NCBI RefSeq assembly: GCF_017255295.1
Contig: NZ_JAFKDE010000005.1
Span: forward strand, 1-64,000
Length of the DNA stretch: 64,000 nt
Source: Nitratireductor aquimarinus
GTDB lineage: Bacteria; Pseudomonadota; Alphaproteobacteria; Rhizobiales; Rhizobiaceae
Reading direction: 5' to 3'
Shown: piece after piece, positions 16,514-28,225 of the stretch
How the letters are laid out: every line of letters begins with the position of its first letter
Numbering within the stretch: the stretch's first letter is position 1
The notes under the pieces: model-generated
Database searches by the model: none
Told to the model about the DNA's origin: nothing
Seen by the model: only the letters and a program-made list of their open reading frames with translations
Translations under genes and position numbers: made by a program

Positions 16514-17137
16514 CTAAGCCAGTTTCGTCAAATGGTCAATCCCAATCCGGCAAGGCGTCATACGCCCGAATATGTCGATCTCGATATCGACCTCATGACC
16601 GCTGCCCTCATCCTTCGAGACGATCCCTTCCAAAGAAGCGAACGGGCCGAGCGTCACAACAGCCCGATCGCCAGCCAGAAAAAGCTTCGACTTATCAACT
16701 AGCTCACCGGAGCAACCTGATTGAATTTTCGCGATAAATCGCTCCGGTATTGGCTGCGGCGTTTCACCATTTCCAAGCAGGCAATCGACGCCGTCGAACG
16801 TCATCAGGCCAAGCCAGGCCGCCTCAAACTTCACCAGACGAACGAAGAAGTAACGGGAGTAGAGCGGGCTCTCGACAGCAACCTTGATGCGCTTGCGAGG
16901 AAGCCTTTTCACAACTTTCTCGGTCGGGCAGTAGACGGTGATACCCTGCTCCCTGACCACATCGGCGACCGAATCAGCATTCGGCTTTTTGGTGCGGACC
17001 ACATACCAGAACATCTCATCGTCCTGTGCCGCAGCCTGATCGCGAAGCCAACAGACCATTTCACGAACCTTGCGGGATTTCTGCCAGGCGCGCTCTTCTC
17101 GCTCGCTCAGTTCGTGCACCAGACCCTCACGCATCAT
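16514..17137 (-). CDS. Phage-borne NusG-like (NGN-domain) antitermination factor
   Basis: 207 residues. After an N-terminal helix comes the NGN pattern from about residue 43: FWYVVRTKKPNADSVADVV, ITVYCPTEKVVKRLPRK, SRYFFVRL. The end has a KOW-like segment, AGDRAVVTLGPFASLEGIV, near residues 153-172. NusG-family proteins bind the RNA polymerase clamp and change pausing and termination. It is the last gene of the early operon, right before the late structural genes, which is where lambda has Q. I infer it acts as late antiterminator. ATG at 17137 overlaps the upstream stop (ATGA). Confidence 0.8.
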   Translation of the reverse strand: MMREGLVHELSEREERAWQKSRKVREMVCWLRDQAAAQDDEMFWYVVRTKKPNADSVADVVREQGITVYCPTEKVVKRLPRKRIKVAVESPLYSRYFFVRLVKFEAAWLGLMTFDGVDCLLGNGETPQPIPERFIAKIQSGCSGELVDKSKLFLAGDRAVVTLGPFASLEGIVSKDEGSGHEVDIEIDIFGRMTPCRIGIDHLTKLA

Positions 17138-18384
17138 TCCGCCGCCTCGCTGGTCTCTGCATCATTGGCACTGATTGCCGCTTCGAATTTCCTCAGCCCA
17201 CCCGGCCCACCTGCCGGGAAATAGACCACACGCTGCTCCCCCGTATTCGGGAGCCATGGCCACCCTTTCCGCTCATGAAACAGCTTCCATTCCTCCCAGC
17301 GCTCTGATCCGACGAGCACCGGCTCCATCAGCCCTGCAAACGCCTGCAGCGCAGGCGCCACAGAAACGCCCTGACGATTTGCCGCCCGTTCATGCATCGC
17401 GTTCACCACAGGCCAGCCATATCGGGCCTGCCGCTCGCGAAGGACTTCGCCAGCGTCAATGACACCCTGATCAATCATTCTGCGCTGCGCAGCCGTCATC
17501 GGGGGTGCATCCTTCGGAGCAACAGTCAAAAACTGCTTCACGCGCACCAGCCCCCACAACGCACCCCATGGCTTCGCCAAGAGGTTTTCCGGAGCACGCT
17601 GTTCCGGCAGAACCACACCCTTCCAGAGCTTTTCGGAGAAGTACGTCGAGGGAGCCGGCACATGCCGTTTGCCCTGAGACTTCAGCAGCGCAAACCAGCG
17701 ATCACGCTTGCGTTCAGCGTCGGCGCGCTCATCCGCCGTAAGCGCAAACCATGGACGCATTGCCGGTTTCTTCGGCATCCCGGCAAACCCCGGCCAATCT
17801 TTCACCACCCGCCAGAACGCCCGTTCCACCGATTTGGGATCCTCGCTCTGCGATCCATCTTCCGGATTTTCCAGATCATCCCTCTCTCGCGCGCCTTCGC
17901 GCGCCCTCTGAGAGGTTCTACTGGTAGGTTCTATGGGAGGTTCTTCCTTATAGGCCCGGAACTGATTGCCGGTAGGCGTGTCGTCAACTGCCGGTAGGTC
18001 GGCGTCTGGTTGCCGGTTGGTCCTACCGGCAGATTCTGCCGGTAGGCCATCAGTGACGGCTGCGTCTGAACCTTTGCCACTCCGGCAACGCTCCACCCCA
18101 TCAAGAACGCTCACATCCAGCTTGAGCACGATCATGTCGGCAGCGCGCGCGCCGTTGCGCCGGGTGCGTCGCGTGCGGGCGATCAGCCCCCAGTCCTCCA
18201 GCCGCTGCAGCCATTCGCGTGTGGTGCGCTCGCTCACTTCCGCATCCTGCGAAAGCTGCTCCTGGCTCGGCCAGCAGGCCGCCTTCTCGGCGTCGGCATA
18301 GTCAGCAAGGCAAAGCAGGATCGCCTTTGCAGCCGGCGAGCCGAGGCGCTGCTCTTTCGCCCATGCAGATGCTTTCCAGCTCAT
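17134..18384 (-). CDS. HTH-domain phage replication protein
   Basis: 416 residues. Residues 1-95 form a winged-helix domain of the replication-initiator type: SWKASAWAKEQRLGSPAAKA, CWPSQEQLSQDAEVSERTTR, REWLQRLEDWGLIARTRR. A long charged, disordered middle is followed by a C-terminal domain with LWGLVRVKQFL and WEEWKLFHERKGWPWLPN. Such proteins serve as lambda-O-like origin binders in many prophages. The stop overlaps the NusG-like start, and the start overlaps the cytosine methylase stop. No origin iterons were recognised inside it. Confidence 0.7.
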   Translation of the reverse strand: MSWKASAWAKEQRLGSPAAKAILLCLADYADAEKAACWPSQEQLSQDAEVSERTTREWLQRLEDWGLIARTRRTRRNGARAADMIVLKLDVSVLDGVERCRSGKGSDAAVTDGLPAESAGRTNRQPDADLPAVDDTPTGNQFRAYKEEPPIEPTSRTSQRAREGARERDDLENPEDGSQSEDPKSVERAFWRVVKDWPGFAGMPKKPAMRPWFALTADERADAERKRDRWFALLKSQGKRHVPAPSTYFSEKLWKGVVLPEQRAPENLLAKPWGALWGLVRVKQFLTVAPKDAPPMTAAQRRMIDQGVIDAGEVLRERQARYGWPVVNAMHERAANRQGVSVAPALQAFAGLMEPVLVGSERWEEWKLFHERKGWPWLPNTGEQRVVYFPAGGPGGLRKFEAAISANDAETSEAAE

Positions 18385-19076
18385 TCCGCGGCCTCCAGCG
18401 CAAAATCATCGAGGGCAGCACCGCCCCATTGGTCGGCCATGGCCTCCGCCATGCCGGGGAAGAAGCGGCTGCGCTCCTTGCCGCGATCCGCACCCGGCGA
18501 CATCCGCCACACGCGGTTCCAGCGCTTCCATTCATCACTGCCCTTTTCGGGCTCCGGCAGCCGGTCCGTCTCTGCAAGGGCAGGAAGCCCGCGCAGATAC
18601 CAGCCCGTCGCCTTGTATTCCGGATTCCCAAACCAGAACGGCTGCACGATCTGCGGGCGCGGCAGGTCAGCCGGCATCCGGGCCTTGGCAAGGTCGTGCA
18701 TTTCCGGGTTTTCAATCGCCACGCGGGGAATGGGCGCGCGCCAGCAGGCAACGAACAGGTCAATGCCCTGCTCGAACTCCGTCTTCATGCTCTCCCACGT
18801 GCGGCCCTTGGGCAGCTTCTTGGGCGGCGTCATATTGCCCGCGCCCGATAGCCAGCGACGGCCAGACCGGCACAGCCGAGTGCATGGCGGATGCGCGACA
18901 ATGAGCAGATCCCAGCCATCATGCAGGATCTCGCGCACATCGCCGACGATATGCCGGTTGCTGCGGTCATCCGCAGGCAGCAGGTCGCAGGACCACGCAT
19001 CATGCCCGCGCGCGGCAAAGGCCCGCCGCACGATGCCCGAATACTCGCAACCCACAAGAACGCGGAGACCATTCAT
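18381..19076 (-). CDS. C5-cytosine methyltransferase-like protein
   Basis: 231 residues. The start LRVLVGCEYSGIVRRAFAAR resembles motif I of cytosine methylases, WSCDLLP motif II, and AHPPCTRL at residues 61-68 holds the PPC motif with candidate catalytic Cys65. It is shorter than classic C5 methylases and lacks an obvious long target-recognition domain, like other small phage versions. No restriction partner is near, so it may protect phage DNA or alter expression. Overlaps both neighbours by 4 bases. Confidence 0.7.
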   Translation of the reverse strand: MNGLRVLVGCEYSGIVRRAFAARGHDAWSCDLLPADDRSNRHIVGDVREILHDGWDLLIVAHPPCTRLCRSGRRWLSGAGNMTPPKKLPKGRTWESMKTEFEQGIDLFVACWRAPIPRVAIENPEMHDLAKARMPADLPRPQIVQPFWFGNPEYKATGWYLRGLPALAETDRLPEPEKGSDEWKRWNRVWRMSPGADRGKERSRFFPGMAEAMADQWGGAALDDFALEAAE

Positions 19077-19621: not shown

Positions 19622-19953
19622 TCGGCTGCCTCCAGCGCCGCAGCGGCAGCCGCCGCCCGGCGCTTCTGGTTCTGGCGGTGCGTCACAAGCTCCAGATGGC
19701 TTTCCCGCACGCAGAGGCGCTGCCGGCACTTGTGGTCGAGCTGCTTCTTGCCGGGAATGAACCCGTTCTCGTTGGTCCACGAAACCTTGTGCACGGCCAC
19801 GGTCTGCCCATCGAGCGACATGCGGGCATACTGCCCGCCGCGCCCGTCGCCGCTGGTCGGCCCGGTCCAGATATGGCAGGGCGTCTCATGGCCAGTGTCG
19901 ACCACCTCAACGCGCGCCATGATCTTTTCGCGAATGCGCTCACGCCGGCTCAC
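19618..19953 (-). CDS. HNH endonuclease-like protein
   Basis: 111 residues. The core is PCHIWTGPTSGDGRGGQYAR, AVHKVSWTNENGFIPGKKQL, DHKCRQRLCVRESHLELVTH: an H-N-H arrangement with Cys pairs typical of small phage HNH nucleases (CxIW...G...L.H.C....C..P.HL). It could nick DNA in packaging or be a selfish homing enzyme. It ends Leu-Glu-Ala-Ala-Glu and overlaps both neighbours by 4 bases. Confidence 0.8.
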   Translation of the reverse strand: MSRRERIREKIMARVEVVDTGHETPCHIWTGPTSGDGRGGQYARMSLDGQTVAVHKVSWTNENGFIPGKKQLDHKCRQRLCVRESHLELVTHRQNQKRRAAAAAAALEAAE

Positions 19954-20237
19954 GGGAACCTCCCGTGCTTGGTCATCACGGTTTTCAGCCGCCGCGCCGC
20001 CGCTTCGAGGTTCCTGCGCGCGCGAACTTCCGGCCCGCCGGCAAACTTCGCCTGCTGCAGTCGGTCAAATGCTTCGCCAACCTGACGACAGGCGTTCATG
20101 ACCTCCTCATCCGCCTTGCGCACGACAACGCGCGGCGCGGGCACGCGCAGCTTCTCCACCTCTTCCATGAGCACCTGACCAACCACACCGGCCAGCCGCT
20201 TCTTGATGCCGTCGATTTTGTCGATGGGCGCCGTCAT
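19950..20237 (-). CDS. Hypothetical phage early protein
   Basis: 95 residues, helix-rich, with KIDGIKKRLAGVVGQVLMEE and FDRLQQAKFAGG. No family recognised. It overlaps the genes before and after by 4 bases, which supports expression as part of the early operon. Confidence 0.6.
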   Translation of the reverse strand: MTAPIDKIDGIKKRLAGVVGQVLMEEVEKLRVPAPRVVVRKADEEVMNACRQVGEAFDRLQQAKFAGGPEVRARRNLEAAARRLKTVMTKHGRFP

Positions 20238-20527
20238 GTCCGGCCCCCATCAGCAAATGCGCCCAGCTGCGCGCCGAACTCGGCAAGCGCGTCGGCAACA
20301 GCGGGCTTCAAGCGCCCCTGCCCGTCCCGCACCGAGCGCATGGCGTTGAGCCGCAGCTCGAGATAGGCCTCGCCCGGCTCAAACTGCCGCTTGCGGCAGA
20401 TCTTGCGGATGACGCCCTGATACTTGCTCATGATCATGTCCGGAGCAGCCAGCAGCAGCCGCGCGAGCGCACGGCTATCCTTGGCGTCGTGCATCTGGCG
20501 CAGAATGGGGAGCATGGTGTCGGTCAT
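20234..20527 (-). CDS. Hypothetical phage early protein
   Basis: 97 residues: MTDTMLPILRQMHDAKDSRA, then MIMSKYQGVIRKICRKRQFE. Predicted helical, no known domain seen. It follows the adenine methylase gene through an ATGA overlap with the ribosome site embedded in the methylase C-terminal codons. Confidence 0.6.
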   Translation of the reverse strand: MTDTMLPILRQMHDAKDSRALARLLLAAPDMIMSKYQGVIRKICRKRQFEPGEAYLELRLNAMRSVRDGQGRLKPAVADALAEFGAQLGAFADGGRT

Positions 20528-21210
20528 TCCGCCGCCTCCACGCCAAAGAGCTCGGACTGCGCCAGGTTGACACGATCCATCATGCGAAGGACGGTTTCAC
20601 CGGTATGGGCGCGGTCCCAGACAAACCAGCCATTCAGCATCGGCGGCGCGCCCTGCCCCGTGAAATCGATCTTCCAGCGCATCAGATAGACCCGTGCCGG
20701 TGGGCACCTGGCCCAGAGCGAGCCCAGTCCAGCAGCAGCCGGCCAAGACCAGCTCAGCAGGAGCGCCATGTATTCGACGTCCAGATCTTCAAGCGCATGA
20801 CGGATCCAGCGGCCGCGCCCATCACGCCAGTTGCACTCGTTGAATGGAGGATTGGTCACTATCGCGCGGGAGGGTCGCGACGCCGCGGAAAACCCATAGA
20901 AGCTCTGGATCAGCGCACCACAGCCACGATCCACCAGATCGGACATGAACACGTCATGTCCCTCCGCCTCCATTTCACGCCCCATCGCCCCGTCACCGCA
21001 GGCCGGCTCCCACAGCGTTGCGAAATCGCCAAGGCGTTTCCGCTCAGCGTGGAGCAGCGCGCGAGTGGGTTCAGGCGGCGTCGGGTAAAAGTCTTCTGCC
21101 GCGCGCTCCAACTCATCGACGACAATGACCTCGCCATCGGCTCCAACCACGGAAACCGGCTTGCTCTTTTTCCCGGTCGCCCGAAACAGACCGCGCGCGG
21201 ATTGCGTCAT
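20524..21210 (-). CDS. DNA N6-adenine methyltransferase-like protein
   Basis: 228 residues from the ATG at 21210, which shares a base with the GapR stop. FYPTP at residues 41-45, WEPACGDGAM at 67-76 (AdoMet motif I), MSDLVDRG (motif II) and TNPPF at 119-123 (catalytic motif IV) define an amino-methyltransferase of the phage Dam-like type. There is no separate specificity gene or nuclease. The target is unknown; since GcrA-type regulators act at methylated GANTC sites, neighbouring genes make that target worth testing. Confidence 0.8.
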   Translation of the reverse strand: MTQSARGLFRATGKKSKPVSVVGADGEVIVVDELERAAEDFYPTPPEPTRALLHAERKRLGDFATLWEPACGDGAMGREMEAEGHDVFMSDLVDRGCGALIQSFYGFSAASRPSRAIVTNPPFNECNWRDGRGRWIRHALEDLDVEYMALLLSWSWPAAAGLGSLWARCPPARVYLMRWKIDFTGQGAPPMLNGWFVWDRAHTGETVLRMMDRVNLAQSELFGVEAAE

Positions 21211-21596
21211 CACGCCATCCCCAGCGCGGCTTTGTAGAGGTCGATCATCGCCTCTTCTTCCTGTCGCTCCGCCTGATCCTTCTTCCGTAGGCGGATGATC
21301 GCGCGCACGGCCTTGGTGTCGAAGCCATTGGCCTTCATCTCGGCGTAGACGAGCTTGATGTCGTCACCGACCGACTTCTTATCTTCCTCCAGGCGCTCGA
21401 CCCGCTCCACGAACGCGCGCAGCTGACCGGCGGCAACCGTGTTCACACAGGCCTCACCAGTCTCTTCCTCGGAGAACATCGCTTCATCGGTTGAAGCCTC
21501 GGGCTCAGGCTCTGTCGCCTTGCGCGCCGCAGCCTTTTTCGCCTTTGCGCCAGCCGAGTGTTTGGGCTCACGCGCGCTCCACGGATCATGCTCCAT
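21210..21596 (-). CDS. GapR-family (DUF2312) nucleoid protein, phage copy
   Basis: 128 residues. Residues 58-126 match the GapR domain: [64 protein letters not shown]. GapR is an alphaproteobacterial protein that clamps overtwisted DNA ahead of replication forks and transcription. The first 57 residues are an acidic/basic extension that is not part of the family core. Located between the clamp and adenine-methylase genes, sharing bases with both. Probably assists phage replication or manipulates the host nucleoid. Confidence 0.9.
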
Positions 21597-22756
21597 CACG
21601 CCACCTGCTTTTCGGTGGCCGAGGCGGGCTGCGACCATTCCCGCAGCGCCTCATTGGCCAGATCCAGCCCCCGCGAGCCTGCCCGCTGCGGCATGAGCAG
21701 GGTAAACGGACCATCCTGCGAGCAGCGGAAAAGGCTGACCGACCCGGCATCACGTACGAACATGGAAACGCGGACTTCCGCTGGAAACGCTTCGAGAACA
21801 CTGGCCAGATAGGTGCTGTTGAACTCGATATGCGCATCCGCAGCGACACCGCTGATCGCCACATCGGAAAGATATTCACGCGCCATCAGGCCATGGTCCG
21901 ACGCACCGCCGAGAGCTATGCTCTGCTGGTTGTAGGCAAGGGCCACGCCCCGCAGGCCACCCGTGGCGTTCAGTGCAGCCGACACCCGGCGCACAACCTT
22001 GAGCAGCGCACGGCGGTCCAGTGTGAGGCAATGGCAATCTGCCGAAATCTCAGGCACGACACGACGCCAATCAGGATAAGTCCCGTCGATCAGCTTCGAC
22101 GTGATCCTGACACCTGGCATGTCGAAACGCATGACTGGCTGCTCATCTCTCCCGGTGAAAATGCGAGAGGGATCCGGAAGCTTGGAAAGCAGCGCCAGAC
22201 TGGTCCTGCTGATTATTGGTGCACAGGTCTCACCGGCGAGTTCCGCCACGGGATAGACCGCCATGCGGTGCCCGTTGGTCGAAACCATATGCCCGTCGGC
22301 AAGGCAGATGCCGTTCAGGTAGTAGCGGGTTTCTTCATCGCAGACGAACGGAAGGCAAAATCGCATCCCCTTCTTGAACGCCGCACCATCCAGCGCCATC
22401 GGCTTGAAAAACGCGCCAGACATCCGCAGGTCATCACCCTCGACGGTCGGCAGGTCATATCGCCCACCGGAAAACCGCAGCGTTACCCCCTGCGCACCCG
22501 CCTCCAGAGTGATCGTGTCATCCCGATCGATATGCCTCACCAGCGCAGCAAGCGGTCGATGCAGGATCGACGCCTTGCCTTCCGCTCTGGTTACCGCGAG
22601 ATCCACCTCAACATAATTGTTCAGGTCCGTGGCCCGAGCCGTCGCGCCATCAAACTGCACACTCTGCATAAGCGGCACTGCAGATGCCTTTGGCACCACG
22701 CGCCCCAACACATCGAGCGCACTCCTGAGCGCGCCTGCGGTCGTCTCAAGTCTCAT
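21596..22756 (-). CDS. dnaN-like: Phage-encoded DNA polymerase III beta sliding clamp
   Basis: 386 residues, close to the usual 370-380. Clamp patterns are clear: N-terminal [20 protein letters not shown] and [13 protein letters not shown], central [37 protein letters not shown], and the C-terminal domain up to [10 protein letters not shown]. The dimeric ring tethers polymerase to DNA. Start at 22756 chosen for GGAG eight bases upstream; it overlaps the preceding small gene by 11 bases. No phage polymerase is seen here, so it would have to recruit the host polymerase. Confidence 0.9.
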
Positions 22757-22934
22757 GGCTTTCTCCATCGGTTGAGGCCCGATACGTGTCACGTAGACGC
22801 CGCTGAATGCGCAGCAGCGCATCACGCACAGGCAGGTTGCGCTCCACGTCCATGCGCGCGGCATCATCCGGCGCACGCTTCGCAAGCGCGGATCCGGGCA
22901 GGGTCAGGTTTGGGCTTTTATCCTGGCTGCGCAT
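22746..22934 (-). CDS. Small phage early protein
   Basis: 62 residues from the ATG at 22934: MRSQDKSPNLTLPGSALAKR, then a basic helix LPVRDALLRIQRRLRDTYRA. No recognised family. It shares a base with the upstream membrane-peptide stop and overlaps the clamp gene by 11 bases, so its translation could be coupled to the clamp. Confidence 0.6.
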   Translation of the reverse strand: MRSQDKSPNLTLPGSALAKRAPDDAARMDVERNLPVRDALLRIQRRLRDTYRASTDGESHET

Positions 22935-23032
22935 CAGCCGGCCCTCGGTGTGATGGCGGCGAGCCAGAGTAGCAGGAGACAGAACAGCAGAACGGCAAAA
23001 GCCGCCGCCCGCCATGCGCGCGCCGCCGTCAT
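22934..23032 (-). CDS. 32-residue single-pass membrane peptide
   Basis: MTAARAWRAAAFAVLLFCLL and on to WLAAITPRAG: a basic start followed by one hydrophobic helix. It begins in the stop of the GcrA-like gene (ATGA) and ends in the start of the next gene (TGATG). The exact fit between neighbours supports it despite its small size. Function unknown. Confidence 0.6.
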   Translation of the reverse strand: MTAARAWRAAAFAVLLFCLLLLWLAAITPRAG

Positions 23033-23292
23033 GCCGCCTTCTCCTCAGCCACGCTTTCGCAGCGGGCCAGATAGTCGCGGTGAAATGCGCAATAGCGGCT
23101 GTGCTGCCCGCCGCCGGCCCAGTTCTCTGGCTCCACAGCGGCGGCACAGAAAAACGTGGTGCCCGGCTCACGCCGCACGGGAAAGAGGCAGAAAGCCCCT
23201 TCGATCTCCAAAAGGCTGCGCCCGCCGGCCACGCCAGCAGGCGCTTCCGGCGCATTGCGCTCCTGCACCATGTCTTCGACGGAGCGGATCAT
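23029..23292 (-). CDS. GcrA-type mini protein (C-terminal domain only)
   Basis: 87 residues. Residues 24-72 resemble the C-terminal domain of the cell-cycle regulator GcrA: GRSLLEIEGAFCLFPV, then FFC and RYCAFHRDYL, with Cys35, Cys49, Cys68 and His71 as a putative metal or structural set. The N-terminal DNA-binding helix-turn-helix of GcrA is absent. In GcrA this C-terminal part binds sigma-70. A phage copy without DNA-binding part might occupy sigma-70 or compete with host GcrA; that is inference. Overlaps both neighbours by 4 bases. Confidence 0.65.
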   Translation of the reverse strand: MIRSVEDMVQERNAPEAPAGVAGGRSLLEIEGAFCLFPVRREPGTTFFCAAAVEPENWAGGGQHSRYCAFHRDYLARCESVAEEKAA

Positions 23293-23771
23293 CGCGCGTC
23301 CCCGAGCTTCGCTGAAAGCCTGTAGAGGACTGCTTTTGCCTCTGTGACTTCACGGAGCAGATCGCTCCGATCAGTAGCGTCGAGACGCTTCCCACTGGTC
23401 AGCAGGCCAAGCAGCAAATTGACAACGTCGCCGGTTTCCTTGGCAATCGCCTGCGCATCACCGAGATGAAGATCGTCTTCTTCTTCCGCGCCAATGGGGC
23501 GTAGTTCGAACCCCTGCATTCTCGCCAACACCCCGGTTATCATCGGGGCGCCGTTGTGCCGGTCGAGCTCAAGTATAATGTCGAGCGGTACGAAGTGATC
23601 AGGCTCGGCCCTGCCGCCGTATTTTGAAAGGGCGGCCTTTTTCACTCGCGTATGAGGCTCGAATTCGGCCCCACCCGCCATTTTCACCGCCCGTGCGGTG
23701 ATGGATTTGAGGCGGCGTCGCTCGTCATCTGTAGACTCGCGAGGAATGATGCGAAGTTCATCGCCAGACAT
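23289..23771 (-). CDS. Phage regulatory protein, CII/CP76-like
   Basis: 160 residues from an ATG with GGAG eight bases upstream. The segment SKYGGRAEPDHFVPLDIILE followed by LDRHNGAPMITGVLARMQGF resembles phage regulators that carry a short DNA-binding part and a D-x2-x-LE..GxP..T..LA.MxG motif. The C-terminal half (GDVVNLLLGLLTSGKRLDA) is helical. A perfect 10+10 inverted repeat lies 34 bases upstream of the start, so it may regulate itself or be regulated there. First gene of the replication operon. Confidence 0.55.
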   Translation of the reverse strand: MSGDELRIIPRESTDDERRRLKSITARAVKMAGGAEFEPHTRVKKAALSKYGGRAEPDHFVPLDIILELDRHNGAPMITGVLARMQGFELRPIGAEEEDDLHLGDAQAIAKETGDVVNLLLGLLTSGKRLDATDRSDLLREVTEAKAVLYRLSAKLGDAR

Positions 23772-23901: not shown

Positions 23902-24447
23902 CTATGGCGGCGACCGGAGAGCGCCCCGAGGCACGCCCTCCGGCCCCTTCTCGCTCTCAGGGTTATGGGTTTGCGCCACGCAAGGCTGCGACCGCAGCCC
24001 GCCCGTTTTTTCGGGCGCGTTGTCCGCAGGCCAGCGGGGCGAAGCCTCGCGCTCGGCCGGGAGGGCGCAACTGGTTGCAGGGGGCAGATTCGAACTGCCG
24101 ACCTCTTGGGTATGAACCAAGTGGGATACCGCTTCCCCACCCTGCTGAAACTGATTTGCTGCGCCGGCCTCAAGGTCGCACACGGCGCGCAGAAGGCGCG
24201 GAATGCCTGCAGCCCTGGCGCGCTCGGCGGCCATGTCGGCAATCAGCGCGTCGACACTGGCGAACCTCTCATAGGCGGCAATCGCCTTGAGCAGGATCAT
24301 CATGGCCGGCGAAACGCGAATGGAAGAGGAGGCCGCGCCTGCCGGGAAACGAGCCCCGTAACCCGCAGGCGCGGCCAGCGCCACATTTCCGGGGAGGAGG
24401 TCGGAAACGCGGTCTTGGGAGGAACAGCGTTGACGAAGCGCGCTCAT
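23902..24447 (-). CDS. Hypothetical phage protein; 3' part overlaps the tRNA
   Basis: ATG at 24447 overlaps the stop of the Cro-like gene (ATGA). The first 100 residues look genuine, especially SPAMMILLKAIAAYERFASV followed by DALIADMAAERARAAGIPRL. From about residue 101 the frame runs through the tRNA gene and beyond, giving the well-known tRNA read-through string HTQEVGSSNLPPATS. The true C-terminus is therefore doubtful, and the stop at 23902 is only where the frame ends. Function unknown. Confidence 0.45.
   Translation of the reverse strand: MSALRQRCSSQDRVSDLLPGNVALAAPAGYGARFPAGAASSSIRVSPAMMILLKAIAAYERFASVDALIADMAAERARAAGIPRLLRAVCDLEAGAANQFQQGGEAVSHLVHTQEVGSSNLPPATSCALPAEREASPRWPADNAPEKTGGLRSQPCVAQTHNPESEKGPEGVPRGALRSPP
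23984..24017. terminator. Two adjacent hairpins downstream of the phage tRNA
   Basis: GGCTGC (23984-23989) pairs with GCAGCC (23994-23999) and CGCCCG (24000-24005) with CGGGCG (24012-24017) around a T6 loop. They lie 55 bases past the tRNA 3' end and could end or process the tRNA transcript. The 300-base stretch 23772-24071 otherwise holds the inverted repeat above and no convincing gene. Confidence 0.4.
24072..24146 (-). tRNA. Phage tRNA with anticodon CAU (Met or Ile2)
   Basis: A full cloverleaf of 75 bases with encoded CCA. The D stem GGGA/TCCC, anticodon stem CTTGG/CCAAG, loop TTCATAC, T stem GGCAG/CTGCC with TTCGAAT all pair. The anticodon is CAU. The acceptor stem pairs except for an A1-A72 mismatch, a position also unpaired in bacterial initiator tRNA. 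The anticodon stem lacks the three consecutive G-C pairs of an initiator, so elongator Met or lysidine-modified Ile2 is likelier. Confidence 0.88.
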
Positions 24448-24683
24448 TCGGCGGCCTCCCGAATAGGTCGGAATGACGTTGCGGTCGTGAACAATTCTTC
24501 AACGCCGTTGCTGTCTGCAGCATCAGCCAACATCGAGAGGAGCCGCAGAATGGCACCACTTGGCTTTCGCCCATTCTCCAAATGGGAAACGGTTGAGCGG
24601 TCGACGCCGAGAAACTCGGCCATCCGCTCTTGCTTCCAATTGATGCGCAGGCGAAGCGCTTTGACGTCGCAGATATCACTCAT
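24444..24683 (-). CDS. Cro-like XRE helix-turn-helix protein
   Basis: 79 residues from the ATG at 24683; a longer frame upstream would run through the operators, so the short start is chosen. Residues 8-50 are an XRE HTH: LRLRINWKQERMAEFLGVDR, STVSHLENGRKPSG. It is divergent from the repressor across two operator copies, the Cro position. It ends REAAE with the ribosome site for the next gene in those codons. Likely the lytic counterpart of the repressor. Confidence 0.85.
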   Translation of the reverse strand: MSDICDVKALRLRINWKQERMAEFLGVDRSTVSHLENGRKPSGAILRLLSMLADAADSNGVEELFTTATSFRPIREAAE

Positions 24684-24692
24684 GGCGGAAAC

Positions 24693-24752
24693 GTGCATAA
24701 CGCACGGTTCATTGTCAAGTCGAAACGCACGGCTCAACTGTGCATTTTGCAC
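24693..24752. promoter_or_regulatory. Divergent operator/promoter region (O1, O2)
   Basis: O1 at 24693-24705 reads GTGCATAACGCAC (GTGCGTTATGCAC on the minus strand) and O2 at 24740-24752 reads GTGCATTTTGCAC. On the minus strand TTGACA (revcomp of 24713-24718) lies 7 bp before O1, so O1 overlaps the core promoter of the Cro-like gene. O2 abuts the repressor start codon at 24753, suitable for self-repression. A half-site CGCACGG lies at 24726-24732. Confidence 0.75.
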
Positions 24753-25460: not shown

Positions 25461-25507
25461 GTGCATTATGCACGTTTTTTCTTGACATAAATCTGTGCGT
25501 TATGCAC
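25461..25507 (+). promoter_or_regulatory. Operators O3 and O4 with promoter of the int operon
   Basis: O3 at 25461-25473 is the perfect palindrome GTGCATTATGCAC, 15 bases after the repressor stop. O4 at 25495-25507 is GTGCGTTATGCAC, 7 bp after TTGACA at 25482-25487. This matches exactly the TTGACA-N7-operator layout at O1 on the other strand. It should drive the rightward operon that ends in the integrase and be shut by the repressor. Confidence 0.78.
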
Positions 25508-26847: not shown

Positions 26848-27030
26848 ATGAGCCGCGCACTCGCGCTTACACAAAGACAGGTCCGCGCCCTTTGTGAGGG
26901 GGCGAAGAAGGCGGGTTTTGCCCCCATTGTTCAGATTGGCAACGTCCTGGTACGGCTTGTTCCGGAGGAGCACGCCATCCCCGAACGCCCGGACGGCAAG
27001 CTTGACAAAGAAGAACAGGGCTATTTCTGA
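26848..27030 (+). CDS. Small protein upstream of integrase, possible excisionase-type
   Basis: 60 residues: MSRALALTQRQVRALCEGAK, then KAGFAPIVQIGNVLVRLVPE. Basic helix followed by a strand pair, as in small DNA-bending factors. Its stop shares a base with the integrase start, so both are made together. Excisionase is inferred from position only. Confidence 0.5.
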   Translation: MSRALALTQRQVRALCEGAKKAGFAPIVQIGNVLVRLVPEEHAIPERPDGKLDKEEQGYF

Positions 27031-28070
27031 TGTCGGATATGCCGCGTCGTCGCAAACCATATGTCCAGAAGGAAATCACACGCCACAACACGACAGTGTG
27101 GTATTTTCGGCGCGGAAAAGGCCCAAGGATCAGACTCCCTGGCCCCTATGACAGCGATGAGTTCAATGCAGCTTACGAGGCTGCACTTTCCGGCGAAACA
27201 CAACACCGCCGCTCCTCGCTGCTGGAACACAGGCAGGGGTCGGTAGCCTGGCTCATCCGACAGTACCGGCTCTCTGCTGCATACCGGAATCTTGCCGACA
27301 TCACGCGAAAGAATCGTGACGCGATCCTGAAACAGGTCGAGCAGACCGCGGGCAACCTCACTGCGGCAAAAATCACGCCGGACCACATTCGGGCTGGATT
27401 GAAACGGCGAGAAGGAAAGCCAGGATCTCAGCGCAACTTCCTTCGCGCCATGCGACACCTTTTTCAGTGGGCGGTGCCAGAGCACGTGCCATCCGATCCA
27501 ACGGCGGGGGAAAAGGTAAGGATGCCGAAAACTCAGGGGCACGCACCATGGTCCGTCGACATGATCGACAGATACCACGCCAAGCACAAGCTGGGGACAA
27601 AGGCGCGGCTTGCGATGGACCTAATGCTCTATACGGGCCTTCGCCGATCAGACGTGGTCAGACTGGGCCCTCAGCATATACGTGACGGTGTGTTGACGAT
27701 CAGGCTCAAGAAGTCGCAGGAACTCACCGAAGTGATCCTGCCCGTGCTTCCTCCGCTGAAGGAGAGCATCGACGCCACGGAAGTGGGTGACCTGGCGTTT
27801 CTGGTAACGCAATACGGGAAACCATTCACTGCCGCCGGTTTTGGCAACTGGTTCGCGGATCAATGCATTGATGCCGGCGTCGAAGGGCGGGCGCATGGCC
27901 TGCGCAAGGCAGCAGCAACCTTCGCGGCAGACAATGGGGCCACGCCTCACGAACTGATGGCGATCTTTGGATGGCAGAATCTCAAGGAGGCGGAGACCTA
28001 CACTAAGGCCGCCGATAGGAAGCGCGCAGCTCTAAAGCGTGCGCATCTCATTCTCAGGACCAAAGCATGA
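27030..28070 (+). CDS. int: Tyrosine recombinase (phage integrase)
   Basis: 346 residues. N-terminal DNA-binding part with SVAWLIRQYRLSAAYRNLAD, core-binding helices, then the catalytic domain: Arg in LMLYTGLRRSDVVRL, HGLRKAAATFAA giving H-x-x-R, GW in IFGWQNLKEAETYTKAA where Trp replaces the second His and Tyr is the nucleophile. It integrates the phage, evidently at the adjacent tRNA-Glu, whose 3' end is 80 bases away. Last gene of the O4 operon. Confidence 0.93.
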   Translation: MSDMPRRRKPYVQKEITRHNTTVWYFRRGKGPRIRLPGPYDSDEFNAAYEAALSGETQHRRSSLLEHRQGSVAWLIRQYRLSAAYRNLADITRKNRDAILKQVEQTAGNLTAAKITPDHIRAGLKRREGKPGSQRNFLRAMRHLFQWAVPEHVPSDPTAGEKVRMPKTQGHAPWSVDMIDRYHAKHKLGTKARLAMDLMLYTGLRRSDVVRLGPQHIRDGVLTIRLKKSQELTEVILPVLPPLKESIDATEVGDLAFLVTQYGKPFTAAGFGNWFADQCIDAGVEGRAHGLRKAAATFAADNGATPHELMAIFGWQNLKEAETYTKAADRKRAALKRAHLILRTKA

Positions 28071-28149: not shown

Positions 28150-28225
28150 TGGCACTCCCAAGGGGACTCGAACCCCTGTTTCCGCCGTGAGAGGGCGGCG
28201 TCCTAGACCGCTAGACGATGGGAGC
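28150..28225 (-). tRNA. tRNA-Glu (anticodon CUC), prophage attachment site
   Basis: 76 bases with encoded CCA. Acceptor GCTCCCA pairs with TGGGAGT (one G-U), anticodon stem CCGCC/GGCGG, loop CTCTCAC with anticodon CUC, T arm CAGGGGTTCGAGTCCCCTT. The 3' end faces the phage integrase, so the integrated phage has probably restored the gene's 3' part and attR lies within about 28150-28190. Confidence 0.95.

Follow-up and report, generated by a model that had tools for sequence, protein, structure and literature searches.

An early operon of a probable lambda-like temperate prophage of Nitratireductor aquimarinus encodes a GcrA-like protein lacking the DNA-binding domain

Introduction

GcrA binds region 2 of the sigma factor through one domain, SID, and methylated DNA through its N-terminal domain (PMC7403470), and analogues of GcrA and of the methylase CcrM have been reported in alphaproteobacterial phages (PMC9437464). 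Here, we describe an operon located in a prophage within the first 64,000 nucleotides of contig NZ_JAFKDE010000005.1 of Nitratireductor aquimarinus (assembly GCF_017255295.1), a stretch hereafter called the window. On the minus strand, from 23771 to 20524, its seven genes encode a CII-like protein, a GcrA-like protein of 87 amino acids (aa) that appears to consist of SID only, two tiny open reading frames (ORFs), the clamp DnaN, GapR and a methylase. We favour, with moderate confidence, the view that these genes form the early operon, for regulation and replication, of a lambda-like temperate phage with an alphaproteobacterial host, and a replication and transcription kit of the phage's own appears more likely to us than a copied host circuit.

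Statements attributed here to published work rest on excerpts of the papers cited. Phage-borne members of the GcrA family include gp222 of phiCbK, whose GcrA proteins belong to the Pfam GcrA family (PMC3556154), and gp5 of Atu_ph08, reported as a phage GcrA (PMC6630229) and encoded directly after GapR. The entries of a table on phiLM21-like prophages include a GcrA regulator (5) and UPF0335 (1) (PMC12429752). The T4 protein DsbA, tied to late promoters, has been named a GapR homologue (PMC7824862), and a 2025 paper presents its phage GapR as the first (PMC12185513), which contrasts with the 154 phage records that match GapR in our searches. GANTC specificity was assigned by restriction protection to Phi2LM21_p21 (partial protection) and Phi3LM21_p21 and is cited for phiLM21_p027, whose type of methylase is unrelated to CcrM (PMC5537653); Pben1_p29 was grouped by similarity beside the methylase of Aurantimonas phage AmM-1 (PMC6536676). 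Among the matches listed for the open-licence literature, there was no account of this operon or of a SID-only GcrA.

The window locus resembles each of these systems in part. Its GcrA-like protein appears to retain the SID motif of Caulobacter crescentus GcrA (5YIX, 7YE1, 7YE2), C-x-[WF]-P ... FC ... YC-x-x-H, but is only 87 aa long, has no DNA-binding domain, carries a longer loop between FC and YC and is encoded after CII; the N-terminal half of the Atu_ph08 GcrA, in contrast, looks like a helix-turn-helix (HTH). Its methylase shares with phiLM21_p027 and related GANTC methylases the NPPY/F/W motif, a small size and a position before replication genes, the difference being that GANTC specificity is a prediction for the window protein, AmM-1 and Pben1_p29. 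Mesorhizobium phage vB_MseS-P1 likewise encodes a repressor, tRNA-Met, CII, GcrA-SID, GapR, an MT-A70 methylase, a replication protein and a NusG-like protein, but gave no DnaN match in the 16 kb examined, and has a methylase of another family and a SID 39% identical to that of the window. In Microcystis phage vB_MweS-yong2 the order is similar (CII, DnaN, GapR, HD hydrolase, methylase), with no GcrA-like match.

Results

Gene content and order of the operon

The seven genes of the operon are the following.

23289..23771, minus strand: CII-like transcription activator of 160 aa (phrog_101, 1.8e-9; model pLDDT 88.5; fold matches to phage 186 CII)
23029..23292, minus strand: putative SID-only GcrA-like protein of 87 aa, no DNA-binding domain (C35, C49, C68 and H71 kept; profile searches)
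22937..23032, minus strand: 32-aa peptide with one hydrophobic stretch (tm), overlapping the stop codon of the GcrA-like gene
22746..22934, minus strand: 62-aa ORF (orf62) of the same cassette, conserved with it in relatives
21596..22756, minus strand: phage DNA polymerase III beta clamp, DnaN (PF02767, 1.5e-7; PF02768, 1.7e-6; phrog_947, 1.1e-48)
21210..21596, minus strand: GapR of 128 aa with an N-terminal extension (PF10073, E 5e-32, 109.8 bits against a cut-off of 22.6)
20524..21210, minus strand: NPPF amino-methyltransferase of the phrog_799 family (2e-49), predicted by homology to form N6-methyladenine at GANTC

From the CII-like gene through the methylase gene, gene ends overlap or abut throughout. 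A first-pass annotation of this DNA had described a tight minus-strand operon of relatives of GcrA (sigma-binding part), GapR, DnaN and an adenine methylase, plus a CII-like regulator, and all of these genes were found at that place. GapR and DnaN matched Pfam families above cut-off, the CII-like protein phrog_101 and the methylase phrog_799. In addition, a tRNA-Met precedes CII, and the 32-aa peptide and orf62 separate the GcrA-like gene from dnaN. Read from a divergent S24 repressor gene, the minus strand carries a Cro-like gene, an ORF overlapping the tRNA-Met, the seven genes above, two small ORFs and, later, genes for a replication-type protein and a NusG-like antiterminator.

The GcrA-like protein

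Alone, the 87-aa protein gave no match in Pfam or PHROG, and BLASTP aligned ten of its residues with the host GcrA. Its sole match among 50,697 phage records was the 39% identical relative in vB_MseS-P1, annotated as GcrA. A profile iterated on phage sequences only, the host being excluded, reached the C-terminus of the host GcrA at 4.2e-8; earlier iterated profiles had reached it at 3e-7, though the host may have entered them. In the Protein Data Bank (PDB), a 16-row profile, eight rows of which are full-length phage GcrAs, matched GcrA 5YIX at 4.9e-11. Foldseek, run with the SID model (mean pLDDT 70.6), returned three GcrA chains as the top three of six matches. The claimed kinship with the sigma-binding part of GcrA appears to hold by way of intermediates, the full-length phage GcrAs that connect the protein to its host and Caulobacter counterparts; the protein itself matches neither Pfam nor PHROG, and profiles of SID-only proteins make the connection weakly. 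Residues C35, C49, C68 and H71 are invariant across the 16 aligned rows and could be zinc ligands. The protein probably binds sigma-70.

Phage relatives of GcrA fall into two classes, full-length proteins with an HTH-like front half and SID-only proteins like that of the window. No HTH precedes SID in the window frame (106 open codons, M start): the methylation-reading N-terminal domain is missing. The GcrA-like gene is under purifying selection, with dN/dS of about 0.14-0.47 in five comparisons; in view of these values and of its presence at twelve loci, a decayed GcrA was rejected. Among 397 genomes of the same order at least four matched the GcrA-like protein, SID-only in the genome of the window alone and full length in the other three; this is a lower bound with up to 13 candidates scored per genome, since a search of 100 relatives gave another SID-only copy (G005). 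A profile search of genome contigs yielded one locus, in Nitratireductor indicus, whose operon proteins are the same as those of locus L016 (related loci are numbered with L). Three loci on viral contigs (L033, L053, L074) encode phage GcrA relatives in which SID is preceded, as judged by eye, by one or two HTH units; L053 and L074 have a CII match upstream on the same strand.

CII-SID pairing and the SID-tm-orf62 cassette

The CII-like protein combines its phrog_101 match with a CII fold (fold E 0.017 at best). The six best fold matches of its model are all phage 186 CII (6VLI, 6VPE), at 12-15% identity, E 0.017-0.059 and TM 0.36-0.45. CII is the nearest profiled same-strand gene upstream of the SID-only gene in all 12 non-identical loci; in 10 of them the two overlap or lie within about 20 nucleotides (nt), and the two other gaps measure about 250 and 305 nt. 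As the nearest such gene upstream of full-length GcrAs, CII was found in 1 of 13 cases (host counted), or in 3 of 16 with three weaker matches added; L063, cut at a contig end, is excluded from this count, and five full-length loci have less than 2 kb of flank.

The SID-tm-orf62 cassette is 94-95% identical at the DNA level among the window, L005, L008 and L009. The window CII protein has no tblastn match at 1e-3 in these three loci, and the DNA similarity breaks where the CII stop overlaps the SID start. By eye, the CII proteins form three groups, L005 and L009 sharing one. At the far end of the cassette, the window and L008 enter dnaN and L005 and L009 go straight into GapR. As read from these alignments, the history of the cassette is one of exchange at gene borders, with SID-tm-orf62 retained. 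That SID was kept while CII was replaced cuts both ways, as it would fit a general adaptor as well as the lack of any specific contact. Identical copies of the 32-aa peptide are encoded in L005, L008 and L009, and copies with about 65% identity in L015 and L016; L023 has a 48% copy, with SID undetected there.

Co-occurrence of the operon genes across phages

Of the 50,697 phage records, 154 contain GapR, 83 DnaN and 71 the methylase; the match covers most of the protein in 26 of the DnaN records and in 8 of the methylase records. Viral-contig samples comprised the best 80 of 505 GapR loci, hence biased toward window-like ones, the best 80 of 202 phrog_799 methylase loci, 53 ParB-MT-A70 loci, 17 antiterminator loci and 4 DnaN-anchored loci. 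Within 6 kb on the same strand, 79 GapR loci had CII in 24 cases, GcrA-SID of either class in 10, a phrog_799 methylase in 9 and DnaN in 9.

All five kinds of part (CII, SID, DnaN, GapR and methylase) occur together in the window and in four other phages, L008, L016 (with L101), L217 and L219 (with L220). These four have a methylase of a different family, and in L217 and L219 DnaN comes after the methylase rather than before GapR. The set had seemed unique while phrog_799 methylases alone were counted; that idea fell once MT-A70 and PF01555 methylases were included. 'Adenine' methylase is a prediction throughout, as PF01555 enzymes may be N6-adenine or N4-cytosine methylases. The recurrence of the set agrees with the first-pass annotation, whose further proposal that these genes act as a unit fares less well, given three methylase families in one slot, a mobile DnaN and the lack of pairwise association among GcrA-like, DnaN and phrog_799 genes in 51 de-duplicated GapR loci (Fisher p 1.0, 1.0 and 0.40), a weak test with 9, 6 and 4 such loci, respectively, in which L015 represents the cluster of the window.

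Gene order is more regular. With the three methylase families counted and 3 kb of room required, a methylase lies downstream of GapR in 43 of 73 loci: 27 of 28 CII-linked and 16 of 45 non-CII-linked ones (18 of 19 and 16 of 45 without profile seeds and copies; 14 of 15 and 11 of 36 after de-duplication). Upstream of GapR, a methylase within 3 kb was found once in 84 loci, 78 of which have enough room. The same order is seen in PBC5, where GapR (orf55) is followed by orf51, annotated as methyltransferase-like, and in Ruegeria phage 45A6, where one gene intervenes. The idea of GapR requiring the methylase was rejected, as GapR is optional when seen from the methylase: it was found on the same strand, at most 6 kb away, in 16 of 80 phrog_799 loci (with no demand for room) and at most 2 kb upstream in 18 of 31 MT-A70 loci (copies of GapR-set phages included; the 31 are the 53 minus 17 without an MT-A70 domain and 5 with less than 2 kb upstream). 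Where GapR is absent, a methylase follows CII in 20 of 20 de-duplicated loci, 15 of them from methylase-anchored scans and one (L019) fetched by its methylase, so that four are free of this bias. The syntax suggested by these comparisons is that SID follows CII and that, where operons are CII-linked, a methylase follows GapR, with SID, DnaN and GapR itself optional; as far as gene order can tell, this is a phage early operon assembled from slots with exchangeable parts.

DnaN, GapR and the methylase

The central and C-terminal clamp domains of DnaN exceed the Pfam cut-off, phrog_947 matches near full length and the N-terminal domain is unreported by Pfam. The GapR domain is 90% identical to that of the host, 97% to L005 and L009, 85% to L023 and 65-71% to L007, L008, L015, L016 and L217. 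As host identity is 90% for GapR and 32% for the clamp, the host-like GapR was probably exchanged recently. Some Microcystis-named phage records carry GapR, and OM681334 also has this type of early operon; the real host of these phages may be an associated alphaproteobacterium.

The methylase is 64% identical to that of Ochrobactrum phage POI1126, 60% to that of AmM-1 and 27% to phiLM21_p027 (E 9e-11); homology and the NPP[YFW] motif place it in the phiLM21_p027 group. CcrM is defined by PF01555 plus a RAMA domain, the latter being its mark; this architecture was not found in the window methylase, which has no Pfam match at all. The adenine methylase of the first-pass annotation is supported by the NPPF motif and by homology to phage enzymes reported, in the excerpts available, to have the GANTC specificity of CcrM; from these two features, adenine methylation at GANTC is probably the activity of the enzyme. 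GANTC is scarce in prophage and host DNA alike, with 20 sites against 96.6 expected from base composition in the prophage and 21 against 118.1 in the host part; over the whole window, 42 sites compare with a mean of 315 after shuffling. CTNAG (29 in the prophage, 35 in the host part) is the only one of seven control patterns to near this low level.

Regulatory region

The region upstream of the operon is of phage type.

24756..25445, plus strand: S24-type CI-like repressor, divergent from the operon (PF00717, 5.5e-10; phrog_4, 3.1e-25)
24693..24705, no strand: candidate repressor operator of the GTGCNNNATGCAC type, the pattern picked by eye
24740..24752, no strand: candidate repressor operator, a palindrome of the same type
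24444..24683, minus strand: Cro-like HTH protein, start picked by eye (HTH_3, 2e-10, on the longer frame 24881-24447)
24072..24146, minus strand: tRNA-Met(CAU) with encoded CCA and an A1xA72 mismatch, initiator-like (ARAGORN; Rfam RF00005, 58.6 bits)

Palindromes of one type flank the repressor gene, two between repressor and Cro (24693-24752) and two at 25461-25507. No GANTC occurs between repressor and Cro, and control of the operon promoter by the host cell cycle was rejected on this ground. The first-pass annotation had pointed out that, in the host, such parts link DNA methylation to transcription; for the phage operon, a link of this kind is opposed by this absence, by the missing methyl-reading domain and by palindromes that resemble phage-repressor operators. 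TTAA-N7-TTAA, a motif considered for such host control, is absent from the window, an uninformative result with 0.03 expected by chance. Just ahead of the CII-like gene lies a perfect dyad (23829-23805; two 10-base arms, 5-base spacer), a possible regulator site.

Unpaired bases 1 and 72, as in the window copy, are a hallmark of initiator tRNAs. On the operon strand, CII is also preceded by a tRNA-Met(CAU) with CCA in L005/L012, L007, L008, L009, L036-L038, L047 and L051, and further in L052, L057, L066, L085, L087 and L093; none was found in L015, L016, L017, L049 and L070. With copies counted, a tRNA, Met in every case except one, lies no more than 1.5 kb upstream of 29 of 73 CII ORFs. Both tRNA-Met and tRNA-fMet have been reported in phiLM21-like prophages (PMC12429752).

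Prophage setting and host genome

The window is the first stretch of contig C5 of a 4.57 Mb genome. The prophage spans from its left edge, which is the contig end, up to the integrase and a tRNA-Glu. Terminase, portal and head genes share the strand of the operon and lie to its left. Other features are as follows.

19950..20527, minus strand: two small ORFs of 97 and 95 aa, kept in relatives (first: phrog_16358, 2.7e-26)
18381..19076, minus strand: second methylase-like protein with a PC motif, without Pfam match
17134..18384, minus strand: HTH_36 replication-type protein (PF13730, 2.2e-12)
16514..17137, minus strand: NusG-like transcription antiterminator (phrog_6386, 2.2e-31)
27030..28070, plus strand: integrase at the right prophage end (phrog_1, 2.4e-34), beside tRNA-Glu (28150-28225)

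The host has a set of its own, a full-length GcrA (C9), GapR (C5:183500) and one RAMA-domain protein, the single RAMA match of the whole genome (C2:636876). Judging from the relatives of the phage, its host is probably an alphaproteobacterium of the Hyphomicrobiales. The same genome (G000) contains a second related prophage region on contig C2 at ~286900-290000 (L005, L012), with SID-tm-orf62-GapR-methylase at 89-100% protein identity to the window, no dnaN between and a CII of another group. On contig C12 at ~4500 (L002), there is a 290-aa frame with a match to the N-terminal part of Pfam GcrA (E 2.5e-5, below cut-off); with a copy of the second methylase-like protein nearby, this is possibly a third phage region.

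Discussion

The layout of the locus, with repressor, Cro and four palindromes followed on one strand by CII, replication-type, NusG-like and terminase genes, supports the early operon of a lambda-like temperate phage. Upon loss of the S24 repressor, the operon would be made as a single message, and the CII-like protein would bind phage promoters. The SID-only protein would bind region 2 of the host sigma-70 and aid the DNA-bound CII or, less probably, dislodge the GcrA of the host; if it activates, it needs a partner on DNA, since it could not read methylation itself, and CII always stands beside it. DnaN as clamp and GapR as coat on overtwisted DNA would both serve replication of phage DNA, and the methylase would mark newly made DNA, probably at GANTC. 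The alphaproteobacterial type of the parts would reflect the need of the phage to work with the RNA polymerase, replisome and methylation of such bacteria, and not the lifting of a whole circuit from the host.

Several observations weigh against this early-operon view. SID stayed unchanged when CII was swapped, an observation that fits separate action of the two just as well, and several SID-only loci belong to one lineage. A profile of 12 SID-only proteins reaches the host GcrA at 0.012 only; the best PDB match of a 10-row SID-only profile is 5YIX at E 0.18, amid antibodies; the fold matches to GcrA chains, at E 0.45-1.2, are each non-significant; and C-K-W-P of GcrA is C-L-F-P in the window protein. 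The operator pattern was picked after the sites had been seen, its 14 window matches with up to one mismatch compare with 7.2 expected, and 4 of 100 shuffles attain 14.

We think it doubtful that the locus is a loose mosaic, in which the early genes are uncoupled in function and the cell-cycle flavour arises since each gene is common in alphaproteobacterial phages. The numbers of phage records with GapR, DnaN and the methylase are in line with this explanation, as is the lack of pairwise association, weak as that test is, and a methylase follows CII even without GapR (20/20, four unbiased), which may not be its partner. However, a methylase comes after GapR in 27 of 28 loci linked to CII, although the methylases are unrelated; this order and that of CII then SID are too regular for free shuffling.

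That the genes work as a unit upon the host cell cycle, as the first-pass annotation had proposed, is improbable in our view. The GcrA-like protein would then take sigma-70 from the host GcrA, GapR and DnaN would seize the forks and the methylase would keep GANTC methylated through S phase. The host indeed owns a full-length GcrA, GapR and a RAMA-domain protein, the predicted specificity is that of CcrM, GANTC sites are few in both prophage and host, four other phages have the full set and the phiCbK GcrA was proposed to alter the host state (PMC3556154). Nevertheless, the methyl-DNA-reading domain is missing and therefore the host circuit would not be reproduced; the parts are unassociated by the same weak test, the methylase family is exchanged, GcrA-SID of either class lies near only 10 of 79 GapR loci and the operon appears to be under phage-repressor control. 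The operon may have some effect on the host cell cycle.

Similarly low is the probability we give to a dominant-negative role, in which the SID-only protein would displace GcrA from region 2 of sigma-70 and silence GcrA-dependent host promoters independently of CII: the sigma-binding part is kept, the DNA-binding part lost and SID is not bound to one CII group, but a free competitor would not need the fixed place after CII (12/12), and SID diverges at positions conserved in GcrA.

Within the early-operon view, one may speculate, with little confidence, that phages split GcrA, detaching its sigma-70-binding half and lending it to whichever CII-type protein sits just upstream. A new CII would then change the choice of promoter with no loss of the polymerase contact. 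Together with the clamp and a GapR/DsbA-like coat, this arrangement may amount to a system of replication-linked activation that resembles T4 late transcription. T4 itself is lytic and has its own sigma factor and co-activator.

In the papers considered, the GcrA, GapR and GANTC methylases of phages appear as separate items; here they come together in one repeated early operon with a recognizable order. If SID does work with CII, the pair would provide a modular route by which phages redirect alphaproteobacterial RNA polymerase.

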